Origin: Acholeplasma sp.
GTDB lineage: Bacteria; Bacillota_I; Bacilli_A; Acholeplasmatales; Acholeplasmataceae
Direction: 5' to 3'
Assembly (NCBI GenBank): GCA_012838065.1
Contig: DUPY01000026.1
Coordinates: forward strand, 1-54,859
Length of the DNA: 54,859 bases
Part shown: positions 31,771 through 54,859 of the stretch, in pieces
Layout of the letters: the number at the start of each line of letters is the position of its first letter
How positions within the stretch are numbered: the stretch's first letter is position 1
Program-made: the position numbers and the translations under genes
Notes under the pieces: model-generated
The model's input: only the letters and a program-made list of their open reading frames with translations
The model's database searches: none
What the model was told of the DNA's origin: nothing

Positions 31771-31780
31771 ATAAGTGATC

Positions 31781-31860
31781 ACTACGGGGAGCGAAAGCTG
31801 AGAGGATATTTATTTATCGACCCGAACACCTGATCTGGGTAATACCAGCGTAGGAATAGT
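31781..31860 (+). ncRNA. TPP riboswitch (THI element)
   Basis: All conserved blocks of the thiamine pyrophosphate aptamer are present in order: CGGGGAGC, GCTGAGA, GACCCGAACACCTGATCTGG, TAATACCAGCGTAGGAA. The closing P1 can form between ACTA and TAGT at the ends. It precedes the thiamine transporter gene and is followed by a terminator hairpin, so TPP should switch off transcription. Confidence 0.95.
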
Positions 31861-31885
31861 AAGCAAATGAATCATTTGAACATCT

Positions 31886-31938: not shown

Positions 31939-32502
31939 ATGAATAATCAAAGTATAAAAAAAATAACAACAACCTCAATTTTGGTTGCTGTTGCGGTTGT
32001 ATTTGATCTTATTGTTAGATACACACCAGGTTTAAATATTTCAATGCCTAATGGTGGTTCGCCATTTGGTATATCGATGGTACCATTAGTTATTATCGCC
32101 TTAATTTATGGCATACCCTATGGTATTATTGGTGGTGTGATTTTTGGATTTGTTAACTTTTTACTTGATGGTTACGGGTTTCACTGGGCATCACTGTTGC
32201 TTGATTATGTCGTAGCGTTTGGCATTATCGGTTTATCAGGATTATTCAAAGGTGGACTTAAAAGTTGGAAACAAACACTTTTTGCAATAATGCTCGCAGG
32301 GTTTTTAAGATACATAATCCACGGTTTAAGTGGTGTTATTATATATGCGGATTATACGCCGCCAGGAAAAACACCATTTTTCTATTCGTTTATTTTGTAT
32401 AACTTGCCTTATATGGCAGCAACAACTTTTATATCCGCGGTTATACTTTTATTGATTCGAAAAAAACTTAATGATATCCTAGATGAAAGTCAAATGTTAT
32501 AA
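31939..32502 (+). CDS. thiT: Thiamine transporter ThiT (ECF S component)
   Basis: Substrate-binding membrane subunit of an ECF transporter, 187 residues with six hydrophobic segments. The segments NGGSPFGISMVPLV, LDGYGFHWASLLLDYVVAF and GFLRYIIHGLSGV match ThiT, where aromatic residues of this region bind thiamine. The TPP riboswitch in its leader confirms the ligand. It needs the shared EcfA/EcfT module, which is not here. Ribosome site AAGGAGG. Its 3' end overlaps convergent recU by 13 bases. Confidence 0.93.
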   Translation: MNNQSIKKITTTSILVAVAVVFDLIVRYTPGLNISMPNGGSPFGISMVPLVIIALIYGIPYGIIGGVIFGFVNFLLDGYGFHWASLLLDYVVAFGIIGLSGLFKGGLKSWKQTLFAIMLAGFLRYIIHGLSGVIIYADYTPPGKTPFFYSFILYNLPYMAATTFISAVILLLIRKKLNDILDESQML

Positions 32503-40884: not shown

Positions 40885-41324
40885 GATTAGTTGTACAACG
40901 TGTTAAAGAAGCGCAAGTTATTATTGATAACAAAGAATACAGTTCGATTAAACAAGGATTTTTGGTATACTTAGGTATTACACATACGGATACGCCCGAA
41001 GATGTTATTAAATATGCAGATAAAGTAAAAAAACTACGTGTATTTAGTGATTCAGAAGGAAAAATGAATTTAAATATCGATGCAGTTGGTGGTGAATTTT
41101 TAGTTGTTTCACAGTTTACATTGTATGGAACGACGAAAGGATATAACCGTCCATCGTTCATTGAAGCTGCTAAGCCTGAGCATGGTGAAAAACTGTACAA
41201 TTTGTTTGTTGAAAAAATCAATGAGTCACATAGATGTAAAACAGGAATCTTTGGCGCAGATATGAATATCGTTTCCATAAATGATGGCCCTGTTACAATA
41301 CTTATTGATTCAATAAATGATTGA
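40881..41324 (+). CDS. dtd: D-aminoacyl-tRNA deacylase
   Basis: Removes D-amino acids from mischarged tRNA. N-terminal MRLVVQRVKEAQV, central GGEFLVVSQFTLYG (the SQ-T motif) and the C-terminal INDGPVTILIDS (the NxGP-type motif, here NDGPVT) are the family signatures. Length 147 is normal. It overlaps rsh by 4 bases. Its stop codon overlaps the -35 box of the hisS promoter. Confidence 0.95.
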   Translation: MRLVVQRVKEAQVIIDNKEYSSIKQGFLVYLGITHTDTPEDVIKYADKVKKLRVFSDSEGKMNLNIDAVGGEFLVVSQFTLYGTTKGYNRPSFIEAAKPEHGEKLYNLFVEKINESHRCKTGIFGADMNIVSINDGPVTILIDSIND

Positions 41325-41349
41325 CAAATAATAGGTTTTTCGTTATTAT
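41321..41349 (+). promoter_or_regulatory. Promoter of the hisS-aspS operon
   Basis: Perfect TTGACA, 17-base spacer, TATTAT, directly before the T-box leader. Confidence 0.75.
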
Positions 41350-41359
41350 TAAGTTATAA

Positions 41360-41497
41360 CTTAATCAGTCTATGATAAAGGATGCTAAGAAGCTGTGACA
41401 CCTTTTGAGACTAACCAATAAATAAGTGCCGATGATATTCGGAATTAAGGTGGTACCGCGGTTTATTCGCCCTTAGGTTTTTTAAGGGCGTTTTATT
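41360..41497 (+). ncRNA. T-box leader of hisS-aspS with a compact Stem I
   Basis: The T-box sequence AAGGTGGTACCGCGG at 41447-41461 is canonical, with a short Stem III before it (CCGA/TCGG) and a terminator after it (CGCCCTTA/TAAGGGCG, T run). AAGG of the T-box can pair with CCTT of the terminator to form the antiterminator. Stem I is only about 46 bases (AGTCT at 41367 with AGACT at 41408; AAAGG/CCTTT; GCT/AGC), roughly half the usual size, and shows no distal AG-bulge module. The internal loop holds TGTGACA: GAC (Asp) is followed by A and then the helix as in normal specifiers, while CAC (His) overlaps it by one base. Folding is manual. Confidence 0.88.
41468..41497 (+). terminator. T-box regulated terminator
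   Basis: CGCCCTTA pairs with TAAGGGCG around a T-rich 7-base loop, followed by TTTTATT; it competes with the T-box antiterminator. Confidence 0.88.
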
Positions 41498-41517
41498 ATA
41501 TTTAAGGAGAGATTTTT

Positions 41518-42780
41518 ATGAATAAAGTTAAGGGAACTTACGACGTATTGCCAAATGAATCAAAGATGTGGCAAGCATTAGAGAAAAAAATCGCACAACT
41601 TATGGAGCGATATAATTATAAAGAAATTCGTACACCAATGATGGAATATAGTGAGGTCTTCCACCGTCAAAGTGAAGGGTCAGATATGGTGACAAAGGAA
41701 ACGTATGATTTTTTAGATCGGTCAGACCGTAAACTTACGTTAAAACCAGAGGGTACTGCAGGTGTTATTCGCAGTTTTGTTGAAAACAAATTATACGTAG
41801 GAAACGATGTTGTTAAACTATACTACGTACAACCAAATTTTAGATACGAACGTCCACAGAAAGGTCGATATCGCCAATTTATGCAATTTGGTGTTGAAGC
41901 TATTGGAATTCGCAGTCCTTTACTTGATGCAGAAGTTGTAAGTATAGCCTATAACTTTATTAAAATATTGGGCTTAAAAGGTGCTAAAATCAAAATTAAT
42001 ACTTTAGGTGATAAAACATCTAGAACAAACTACCTAGAGGCTTTAAAAGCGTATTTTGAACCTCATAGAGAATTTTTAAGCAATGATTCTAAAGTAAGAC
42101 TAGATAAAAACCCACTTCGTATTTTAGATTCAAAAGATGAAAATGATATAAAATTAGTTAAAGATGCACCAACACCGTTGGAATATTTGACAGACGATGC
42201 TAAAAATTATTTTGATGACGTATTAAAATACTTAGATAGTGCAAATATTGACTATGAAATTTCGCCTAGACTTGTTCGTGGACTTGATTACTATAGTCAT
42301 GTGGTCTTTGAGGTTGAAGCGGATATTGAAGGCTTTGGCGCACAAAACGTTCTTGGTGGTGGTGGACGCTACGAAAGTTTAGTCGAAGAACTTGGCGGAC
42401 CAAGTTTAGGTGGAATTGGTATTGCCTTTGGTCTTGAGCGTATTTTATTAGCACTTGAAGCTGAACATATCAATTTAGCTAGTGAAGATGCAATTGATGC
42501 TTATTTTATCGTATTTGATGAAGCACATAAAAAGCATGCATTTAGCTACGCCGAAATGCTACGTGCAAATGACATAAGTGTTGAGTTTGATTTCAAAAAA
42601 ACAAGTTTTAAAAACCAATTAAAACGAGCACTTAAGTTAAATTCTAAGTATTTACTCATACTTGGGGAAGATGAAATTAATCAAGGCACAATTACTGTAA
42701 AAAACACTGTTACAGAAACACAAGAATCTATAAAACAAAACGATTTATTAACATATTTAAAAGAAAAATTAGGTGAATAA
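41518..42780 (+). CDS. hisS: Histidyl-tRNA synthetase
   Basis: Class II synthetase of 420 residues. Motif 2 is YVQPNFRYERPQKGRYRQF, and the histidine-binding motifs are RGLDYYSHVVFE and GGGGRYESLVEELGG with motif 3 GIAFGLERIL. The C-terminal anticodon-binding domain is present. Ribosome site AAGGAG. It is the first gene of an operon with aspS, msrA, dCMP deaminase and further genes and is controlled by the T-box in its leader. Confidence 0.97.
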   Translation: MNKVKGTYDVLPNESKMWQALEKKIAQLMERYNYKEIRTPMMEYSEVFHRQSEGSDMVTKETYDFLDRSDRKLTLKPEGTAGVIRSFVENKLYVGNDVVKLYYVQPNFRYERPQKGRYRQFMQFGVEAIGIRSPLLDAEVVSIAYNFIKILGLKGAKIKINTLGDKTSRTNYLEALKAYFEPHREFLSNDSKVRLDKNPLRILDSKDENDIKLVKDAPTPLEYLTDDAKNYFDDVLKYLDSANIDYEISPRLVRGLDYYSHVVFEVEADIEGFGAQNVLGGGGRYESLVEELGGPSLGGIGIAFGLERILLALEAEHINLASEDAIDAYFIVFDEAHKKHAFSYAEMLRANDISVEFDFKKTSFKNQLKRALKLNSKYLLILGEDEINQGTITVKNTVTETQESIKQNDLLTYLKEKLGE

Positions 42781-42781
42781 T

Positions 42782-44491
42782 ATGAAATACACACATCATA
42801 ATAATGAATTAACACTAAAAAATTTAGGTGAACAAGTATATTTAAAAGGCTGGGTTGCTAAAGTAAGAAACTTAGGTGCCCTAATCTTTATTGACTTAAG
42901 AGACCGTTTTGGTATTACACAATTAGTTGTAAAACCAGAATTTAAAGATTATGCTCTAGCAGAAAAAATTCGTAATGAATACGTCATTGAAGTTCAAGGT
43001 GTTGTTATTGAACGCGAAAGTAAAAATAAAAACATCTTAACAGGAGAGATTGAAGTAGAGGTTACAAATTTAAATATCTTTAGTACAGCTGAAACAACGC
43101 CAATACAAATTACAAATGAAACAGATGCACTTGAAGAAACACGATTGAAATATCGTTACTTAGATTTAAGAAGACCTCGTGCACAAAAATTTCTAATTCA
43201 AAGACATCATATTATGCAACAAGTACGTAGCGTACTTGTAAGACGTGGATTTTACGAATTAGAAACGCCAATGCTTGGTTTATCTACGCCAGAAGGAGCT
43301 AGAGACTATTTAGTGCCTTCTAGATTATATCCGGGTCATTTTTATGCACTACCACAATCACCACAAATGTATAAACAATTATTTATGGTTGCTGGTTTTG
43401 AGAAGTACTTCCAATTTGCAAAATGTTTCCGTGATGAAGACTTGAGAGCTGACCGTCAACCAGAGTTTACACAAGTCGACATCGAAGCATCATTTATCGA
43501 TGAAGAAGATATTTTTGAATTAGCAGAAGACATTATTAAAACAACTTTTAAAAACGTATTGAATCTTGATATACCTACGCCATTTTTACGTATGAGTTAT
43601 AATGAAGCAATGGACAAATATGGTTCAGATAAACCAGACATGCGTTTTGAAATGTTATTAGAAAATTACTCATTCTTAGCAGAAAAAGTTCCATTCTTCG
43701 AAAACGAAGTTGTTAAAGGATTTGTTGCTAAGGGCGCTCAAAATGAATTTACACGTAAACGAATTGATGAATTGACTGCCCTTGTAAAAAAACATCACGG
43801 AAAAGCGCTAGCATTTGTAAAAAAAGCAAACAATGAATACAGTGGAAGTATTGCAAAATTTTTAGATGATGCAATCTATGATCAACTCAAACTAGATAAT
43901 GAAGACATCCTATTCTTAGTTCCTGGAACATATGACAACGTTTCGCAAAGTTTAGGCACACTAAGAATTGAGGTTGCACGCCAACTTGGTTTAATTGATG
44001 AAAATAGATACAGTTTCCTATGGGTTGTTGATTGGCCACTTTTAGAGTACAGTGAAGATGAAGGACGCTTTTATGCGAAACATCATCCATTTACTGCAGC
44101 AAAAGATTTTAATGAATTAAAAAATAATCCAAAAGAAGCACTAGCAAAAGCTTATGATGTTGTTTTAAATGGGTATGAGCTTGGTGGCGGGTCAATTCGT
44201 ATCCACAATCAAGAAGATCAAGCCCTTATGTTTGAAACTTTAGGCTTTAGCAAAGATGATATTCGTACAAAATTTGGTTTCTTTGTAGATGCCCTTAAGT
44301 ATGGTACGCCTCCACATGGTGGCATTGCTTTAGGTTTTGACAGACTTGTTATGTTAATGACAAAAACAGATAACATCAAGGACGTCATCGCATTCCCTAA
44401 AACACAAAGTGCTAAAGACCAAATGACAAATGCTCCAGGAGTTGTTGAACAAAAACAACTTAATGAATTAAAAATAAAGGTGGGCGAATAA
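42782..44491 (+). CDS. aspS: Aspartyl-tRNA synthetase
   Basis: Class II synthetase of bacterial size (569 residues): N-terminal OB fold (LKGWVAKVRNLGALIFIDLRD), motif 2 CFRDEDLRADRQPEFTQVD, the inserted GAD-like domain, and motif 3 GIALGFDRLVMLM. I use the ATG at 42782, 7 bases after AGGTGA; a GTG three codons earlier overlaps the end of hisS. It is co-transcribed with hisS under one T-box. Confidence 0.97.
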   Translation: MKYTHHNNELTLKNLGEQVYLKGWVAKVRNLGALIFIDLRDRFGITQLVVKPEFKDYALAEKIRNEYVIEVQGVVIERESKNKNILTGEIEVEVTNLNIFSTAETTPIQITNETDALEETRLKYRYLDLRRPRAQKFLIQRHHIMQQVRSVLVRRGFYELETPMLGLSTPEGARDYLVPSRLYPGHFYALPQSPQMYKQLFMVAGFEKYFQFAKCFRDEDLRADRQPEFTQVDIEASFIDEEDIFELAEDIIKTTFKNVLNLDIPTPFLRMSYNEAMDKYGSDKPDMRFEMLLENYSFLAEKVPFFENEVVKGFVAKGAQNEFTRKRIDELTALVKKHHGKALAFVKKANNEYSGSIAKFLDDAIYDQLKLDNEDILFLVPGTYDNVSQSLGTLRIEVARQLGLIDENRYSFLWVVDWPLLEYSEDEGRFYAKHHPFTAAKDFNELKNNPKEALAKAYDVVLNGYELGGGSIRIHNQEDQALMFETLGFSKDDIRTKFGFFVDALKYGTPPHGGIALGFDRLVMLMTKTDNIKDVIAFPKTQSAKDQMTNAPGVVEQKQLNELKIKVGE

Positions 44492-54421: not shown

Positions 54422-54483
54422 GAATAATGTTAATAATATAAAAGATTAATAAATACGTATAAAATGAAGGAGATTTTATATAC

Positions 54484-54859
54484 ATGTCAAAAAGAGTATT
54501 TCAAACAACGGTTGGTGGCAGACCATTAATCGTTGAAGTTGGTGAAATGGCAAAACAAGCTAATGCATCAGCTTTAGTTCGCTACGGCGATACAACGATT
54601 TTAAGCGTTGTAACATCAAAAAATGAACCATCTACAGGTGATTTCTTTCCACTGATGGTTATTTATCAAGAAAGATTGTATGCTGCAGGTAAAATTCCTG
54701 GAGGTTTTTTAAGAAGAGAAGGACGTCCTTCTGAACACGAAACATTAACATCAAGATTAATCGATCGACCAATTCGTCCATTATTTGATGAAGGCTTTAG
54801 AAATGAAGTTCAAATCGTAAATACCGTATTAAGTAGTGATCCTACATGCCCACCAGAAA
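54484..54859 (+). CDS. pnp: Polynucleotide phosphorylase (N-terminal part)
   Basis: 3' to 5' exoribonuclease and RNA polymerase. The first 125 residues are in the window and the gene runs off the end. The first RNase PH domain is clear: [49 protein letters not shown] and [11 protein letters not shown]. The ATG is preceded by AAGGAG about 11 bases upstream. Together with RNase J it represents the RNA decay machinery. Confidence 0.96.

Follow-up and report, generated by a model that had tools for sequence, protein, structure and literature searches.

Genes and Regulatory Elements at the hisS-aspS Locus

The window, a 54,859-nucleotide stretch of an Acholeplasma sp. genome (contig DUPY01000026.1), carries the genes for histidyl- and aspartyl-tRNA synthetase as an overlapping pair, hisS-aspS. 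Between the end of dtd at 41324 and the start of hisS at 41518 lie a promoter, a T-box leader, and a terminator (Table 1). Transcription is predicted, from the promoter position, to start near 41356, which gives a leader of ∼139 nt (41356–41494) from this start to the end of the U tract. Only 41495–41517 separate the leader from hisS; it likewise lies directly 5′ of hisS in genome G019 and in some more distant genomes. A search directly upstream of hisS had left the impression that the T-box is nearly absent from relatives, and this was discarded: in most same-family genomes a GNAT-like gene sits between the leader and hisS, and the leader lies ∼600 nt upstream of hisS.

Two further RNA family matches were seen in the window. 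A TPP riboswitch (31775–31873, 60.5 bits) precedes a membrane protein ORF (31939–32502) that, judged from its sequence, looks like a ThiT-like thiamine transporter. An Rfam rliD match at 54456–54629 on the minus strand is antisense to the start of a pnp-like ORF (54484 on) and probably reflects conserved coding sequence.

Table 1. Elements of the hisS-aspS locus, in window coordinates
Feature	Position	Strand	Support or remark
Promoter, sigma-70-type, TTGACA-17-TATTAT	41321..41349	+	11/12 consensus matches; overlaps dtd end
Truncated Stem I, 46 nt	41367..41412	+	Base and lower helices covary, 25 distinct orthologues
Stem I base helix, 5′ strand AGUC, pairs GACU 41409–41412	41367..41370	+	Third pair: U-A/C-G exchange
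Kink-turn 5′ side: 3-nt bulge UAU, G-A (41374–41375), U	41371..41376	+	Partner GA 41407–41408
Lower helix, 5′ strand AAAGG, pairs CCUUU 41401–41405	41377..41381	+	Two-sided exchanges of A-U to U-A, G-C, C-G
Small upper hairpin GCU-AAGA-AGC, in place of distal arm	41384..41393	+	Nearly all truncated leaders; sequence variable
GUGACA, complementary to U33–C38 of tRNA-Asp anticodon loop CUGUCAC	41395..41400	+	GU before GAC in 31/31 truncated leaders
Asp specifier GAC, canonical place, then purine A41400	41397..41399	+	87/89 hisS leaders
Overlapping His triplet CAC	41399..41401	+	72/89 hisS leaders; last C is first lower-helix base
Linker from Stem I to Stem III flanks, ∼11 nt	41413..41423	+	∼7–16 nt in 31/31 truncated leaders
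Stem III (CCGA/UCGG, 41429–41442), flanking AAGUG and AA purines	41424..41444	+	Fits flank rule of PMC7583486
Antiterminator: A1 AAGG/CCUU, bulge UGGUACC (41451–41457), A2 GCGG/UCGC	41447..41474	+	Rfam alignment, folding energies
Intrinsic terminator (41468–41490) and U tract	41468..41494	+	Folding energies
hisS, histidyl-tRNA synthetase	41518..42780	+	TIGR00442, 470 bits
aspS, aspartyl-tRNA synthetase	42773..44491	+	NF001750, 784 bits; overlaps hisS end

The Leader Is a T-Box with Mutually Exclusive Terminator and Antiterminator

The leader matches the Rfam T-box family RF00230 with 41 bits (E 4.9e-8). Since the leader fits neither Stem I nor Stem II of the model, it stays below the gathering score (93 bits); this score is one for the whole model, which penalizes a missing Stem I and Stem II, and is not itself a structural feature. 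The T-box core AAGGUGGUACCGCGG is perfect. A kink-turn, comprising a 3-nt bulge and GA/GA as in all 31 truncated leaders, lies at the base of Stem I; the specifier triplet GAC (Asp) matches one of the regulated synthetases; and a UGGN-ACC bulge is contained in an antiterminator that excludes a terminator. Stem III is flanked as expected from the 5′-RRRxG-stem III-AA-3′ rule (PMC7583486). The T-box identity is not due to chance, and it is almost certain that this T-box controls the hisS-aspS operon. A match of the leader to RF02732 is a chance one (it scores 22 bits, where the gathering score is 81).

Terminator and antiterminator have 41468–41474 in common, with the antiterminator strand CCUU (41471–41474) inside the shared part. 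The computed energies are −12.1 kcal/mol for the terminator and −3.8 kcal/mol for the antiterminator without tRNA, and the predicted default state is therefore off. Simple minimum-energy folding of the leader recovers the terminator but not the Stem I described here. Sequence comparison shows a promoter, a truncated Stem I that carries the kink-turn and the GAC specifier, a Stem III not preceded by any Stem II, and antiterminator and terminator helices that exclude each other.

Stem I Is a Genuine Truncation

The full Stem I reads AGUC-UAU-GA-U-AAAGG-AU-GCU-AAGA-AGC-UGU-GAC-A-CCUUU-U-GA-GACU (41367–41412) and contains neither an AG-bulge nor a GGUGNAA loop. It lacks the distal arm, which in 14 long orthologues carries AGCGA and GGUGAAAG. 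The specifier lies within a 7-nt bulge on the 3′ side of the small upper hairpin.

Both helices below this hairpin are supported by covariation. Among 25 distinct truncated sequences, two-sided changes occur in 5 of the 9 pairs of the base and lower helices, with AAAGG/CCUUU exchanged for UAGG/CCUA, CAGG/CCUG, or GAAGG/CCUUC, and GUC/GAC for GCC/GGC. In these sequences paired cells make up 86%, versus 36–56% when the strands are slid, a figure inflated by an alignment that was fitted to the structure, although sequence motifs anchor it. None of 500 shuffles reached the covariation score.

The original prediction, which described a compact Stem I lacking the elbow-binding part, named covariation in support of a longer Stem I beginning upstream as one of the findings that would overturn it; the short form would then be a misreading. 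The one observation in favor of this is that cmscan stretches the family model to 41312, but the added segment takes in the promoter. Of the 31 truncated leaders, 30 have 15–19 nt between the end of the −10 box and the short base helix, and in those long leaders that have enough upstream sequence the gap is 15–16 nt. This spacing leaves no room for a longer Stem I hidden upstream. Furthermore, where orthologues do have a distal arm, it is located inside, not outside, the same base helix. Together with the covariation of the lower helix, these observations leave an upstream extension with next to no probability, and the compact Stem I of the prediction stands.

We gathered hisS upstream regions from the family, order, and class of the organism. 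The 47 same-family genomes include 31 with a truncated leader (the window included) and 14 whose long, canonical Stem I is built on the same base helix, kink-turn, and specifier, these 45 being split cleanly by a search for the kink-turn and a paired lower helix; L055 gave no fit in this search and L071 a poor one. The kink-turn GA and the specifier are 14–53 nt apart in the 31 leaders and 70–89 nt apart in the 14. Both loops that make up the elbow-binding IDTM, one of the AGCGA/AGAGA type and one of the GGUGAAAG type, are present in the long leaders. The long form is also the one found in the other families of the order, in the class members read, and in all 10 other T-boxes of the same genome. 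Since base, kink-turn, and lower helix are common to both, the short form corresponds to the long form minus its distal arm, and by these sequence comparisons the window Stem I is a real truncation. A still shorter Stem I, with no Stem II and the specifier in a 10–11-nt apical loop (UCUGUGACAA, ACCUGUGACAA), occurs in L071 (G019) and L063 (G020).

On a HisS tree, for which several proteins are partial, the short/long label requires at least 4–5 changes, with long leaders nested among short ones; the arm has probably been lost repeatedly or regained. A covariance model of the truncated form, run on 392 genomes of the phylum, scores 80 bits or more only on same-family hisS leaders, and no truncated leader was found with it outside this family. 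Its next-best matches, up to 62 bits in other families, are canonical long Stem I leaders, mostly of tyrS.

A T-Box without IDTM or Stem II

In all 31 truncated leaders the stretch between Stem I and the Stem III flank is too short for Stem II and IIA/B, an absence that the original prediction had not mentioned; the IIA/B motif is present in most leaders of family f2 of the same order. We are thus highly confident that the window leader is without both auxiliary grips, the IDTM and Stem II.

Four T-box classes have been distinguished: in three of them Stem II accompanies a Stem I that is long, short, or intermediate, and in the remaining one, confined to glycine, Stem I is long and Stem II missing; tRNA binding is aided by the IDTM, the Stem II S-turn, or both (PMC10482949). 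The window leader resembles class II, typified by Bacillus subtilis glyQS, in having a linker instead of Stem II and in being transcriptional. Unlike it, class II is described as glycine-specific with a long, IDTM-bearing Stem I, whereas the specifier here is GAC and Stem I lacks the IDTM. With the ileS T-boxes of class III (Nocardia farcinica type) and class IV (Actinomyces odontolyticus type) it shares a short or intermediate Stem I without IDTM. The specifier, which occupies a side bulge with a Stem I helix on either side, is placed as in class IV, not in a penta- or hexanucleotide apical loop as in class III. In contrast to the window leader, both classes possess a Stem II that includes an S-turn and a pseudoknot and that class III requires, are mostly translational, and in their known examples read Ile. 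The comparison with actinobacterial ileS drawn in the original prediction is therefore apt for Stem I, but does not extend to Stem II or to the mode of control.

The four-class scheme of PMC10482949 has no place for a transcriptional T-box that lacks both IDTM and Stem II, and the architecture is new. We found no T-box lacking both in the literature searched, where Vitreschak 2008 and Gutierrez-Preciado 2009 are represented at most through citing papers. Eight of the 10 other T-boxes of this genome, for Val, Met, Ser, Ala, Trp, Tyr, Phe, and Thr by specifiers called by eye, skip Stem II in the Rfam alignment yet keep a long Stem I, which contradicts the rule that Stem II-less T-boxes are glycine-specific. 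Likewise, tyrS-like leaders from other families of the order (L308, L316, L311, L315, and L318) combine a long Stem I with little or no room for Stem II.

The loss of both contacts could alternatively mark a decaying T-box that no longer senses tRNA, in keeping with a small genome (1.18 Mb) in which Stem II is lost from those eight T-boxes too. In a decaying element, however, the specifier and core would go first, and here the kink-turn (GA/GA in 31/31 truncated leaders), specifier, covarying helices, Stem III flanks, UGGN bulge, and terminator are kept in 31 species. We consider decay quite improbable.

Asp Is the Probable Ligand and His a Doubtful Second One

The specifier region GACAC holds GAC in the canonical place, as had been predicted, and CAC shifted by two bases. 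GACAC is found in 70 of 89 hisS leaders, including all 13 from distant families of the class. It is a described hallmark of hisS-aspS T-boxes, for which sensing of Asp, or of Asp and His, has been proposed (Gutierrez-Preciado 2009, as cited in PMC5313534 and PMC4342826). The overlap of GAC and CAC is thus not new, and the idea of dual sensing dates from 2009. As far as those citing papers describe them, the Bacilli hisS-aspS T-boxes share with the window leader the operon, GACAC, transcriptional control, and the proposed Asp or Asp-plus-His sensing. The class-level orthologues read differ from it in keeping a long Stem I with IDTM.

An NNC specifier easily yields CAC, because the base next to a T-box specifier is a purine and the one after it, in many cases, belongs to a C-G pair. 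Indeed, about 40% of unrelated control NNC T-boxes (∼12 of 29; Val, Phe, Tyr, Asn, and Ile) have CAC through structure alone, specifiers being called by eye in controls and hisS leaders. The asnS T-box of the same genome (L007:1501–1763) reads AACAC, with CAC in the absence of any histidine gene. CAC overlap is therefore partly an architectural by-product and by itself weak evidence. Its rate in hisS leaders nonetheless exceeds that in controls (genus-level Fisher p 0.005–0.012, among leaders that are related), and this excess is not explained by an Asp-only reading.

The acceptor end favors Asp. Every leader read has U or C as the variable base of UGGN, and UGGU or UGGC fits the discriminator G73 of tRNA-Asp (20 of 20 relatives), not the C73 of tRNA-His, which in this genome is paired with G-1. 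No tRNA-Asp gene was matched in the draft assembly of this genome; the gene is present in most relatives, and an assembly gap is probable.

A sensor of His alone, reading CAC, would suit hisS as the first gene and the two orthologues with GGCAC. It is extremely unlikely given the canonical GAC of nearly all hisS leaders, the UGGC of many orthologues that pairs with G73 of tRNA-Asp, and leaders such as GACAA and GACGC without CAC. The two exceptions, L043 (G075) and L148 (G088), have lost GAC and kept CAC, and are candidates for His-only reading.

A T-box that reads two codons, those for Asn and Glu, is reportedly present in Clostridium acetobutylicum. A two-codon T-box, cited by others to Saad 2013, provides the precedent: one leader reading two tRNAs, similar as an idea to the window leader and different in tRNAs and gene. 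If the window leader were a dual sensor, uncharged tRNA-Asp would pair with GAC and uncharged tRNA-His with CAC, after a two-base shift that opens the pair C41401-G41381. The wide conservation of GACAC, the excess of CAC over controls, and the GGCAC orthologues that retain only CAC are in its favor, and His T-boxes may be exempt from discriminator matching (TBDB). Against it, the helix pair must open for CAC to be read, C73 of tRNA-His is left unpaired with UGGU or UGGC, and the operon persists in the ∼17 of 89 leaders in which CAC is gone (Asp-only variants GACAA, GACGC, and GACAG). Gutierrez-Preciado et al., according to a citing paper, also thought Asp the main partner. Considered together, these data make Asp very probably the main ligand, while a meaningful response to tRNA-His is doubtful, and a true dual sensor is rather unlikely. 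The original prediction thus holds for the GACAC overlap; its suggestion that one switch could sense both tRNAs is a possible one.

Widened Specifier Pairing as Possible Compensation

We propose that the leader is a transcriptional T-box riboswitch controlling hisS-aspS and sensing mainly uncharged tRNA-Asp, a reading we regard as likely. The anticodon of uncharged tRNA-Asp would pair with GAC and its GCCA end with UGGU; this pairing would stabilize the weak antiterminator against the terminator, and both synthetases would be made. Charged tRNA-Asp would give no such stabilization, and transcription would stop.

Binding may be too weak in such a leader, because a short Stem I needs Stem II according to published work (PMC7583486, PMC10482949). 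Compensation is proposed since there is neither an IDTM on the tRNA elbow nor a Stem II S-turn beside the anticodon. Pairing of GUGACA with U33–C38 of the anticodon loop could make up part of the lost affinity, and an L7Ae-type protein bound to the kink-turn might restore a further part; an L7Ae-family gene, encoding a possible kink-turn binder, is present in this genome. GU precedes GAC in every truncated leader, in 6 of 14 long same-family leaders, and in none of the 29 listed from other families of the order. A six-base duplex is computed at about −6.4 kcal/mol, versus −0.5 kcal/mol for three bases, by a nearest-neighbor model that ignores loop geometry. An independent-pairs comparison on the HisS tree, a small test, gives no significant association between GU and truncation. 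GU is also present in most of the long leaders that nest among short ones, and so perhaps arose first. We put the widened pairing forward tentatively, as a possible rather than a probable compensation for the lost grips. The more far-reaching proposal, that the leader represents a fifth T-box architecture in which specifier pairing, grown from three to ∼six bases, alone replaces both IDTM and Stem II, and which apparently evolved more than once, is speculative and rather unlikely to be correct.

Implications

The leader is ordinary as a T-box and in its GACAC; it is unusual in doing without both auxiliary tRNA contacts. In current models no T-box can hold its tRNA without at least one of the IDTM and the Stem II S-turn, and the transcriptional ones in particular depend on the IDTM for speed. 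A conserved transcriptional T-box that dispenses with both would reveal which contacts are minimally required to sense tRNA and, at ∼139 nt, is also a sensor compact enough to be of use in engineering. The Asp/His double specifier is testable with natural orthologues that are GAC-only (GACAA, GACGC) or CAC-only (GGCAC). Moreover, a single operon provides a natural series, from a long Stem I with Stem IIA/B, through a long Stem I without Stem II, to a truncated Stem I without Stem II, in which each contact can be tested across orthologues. If the fifth architecture is real, this long-to-short series at one orthologous locus would record its evolution.
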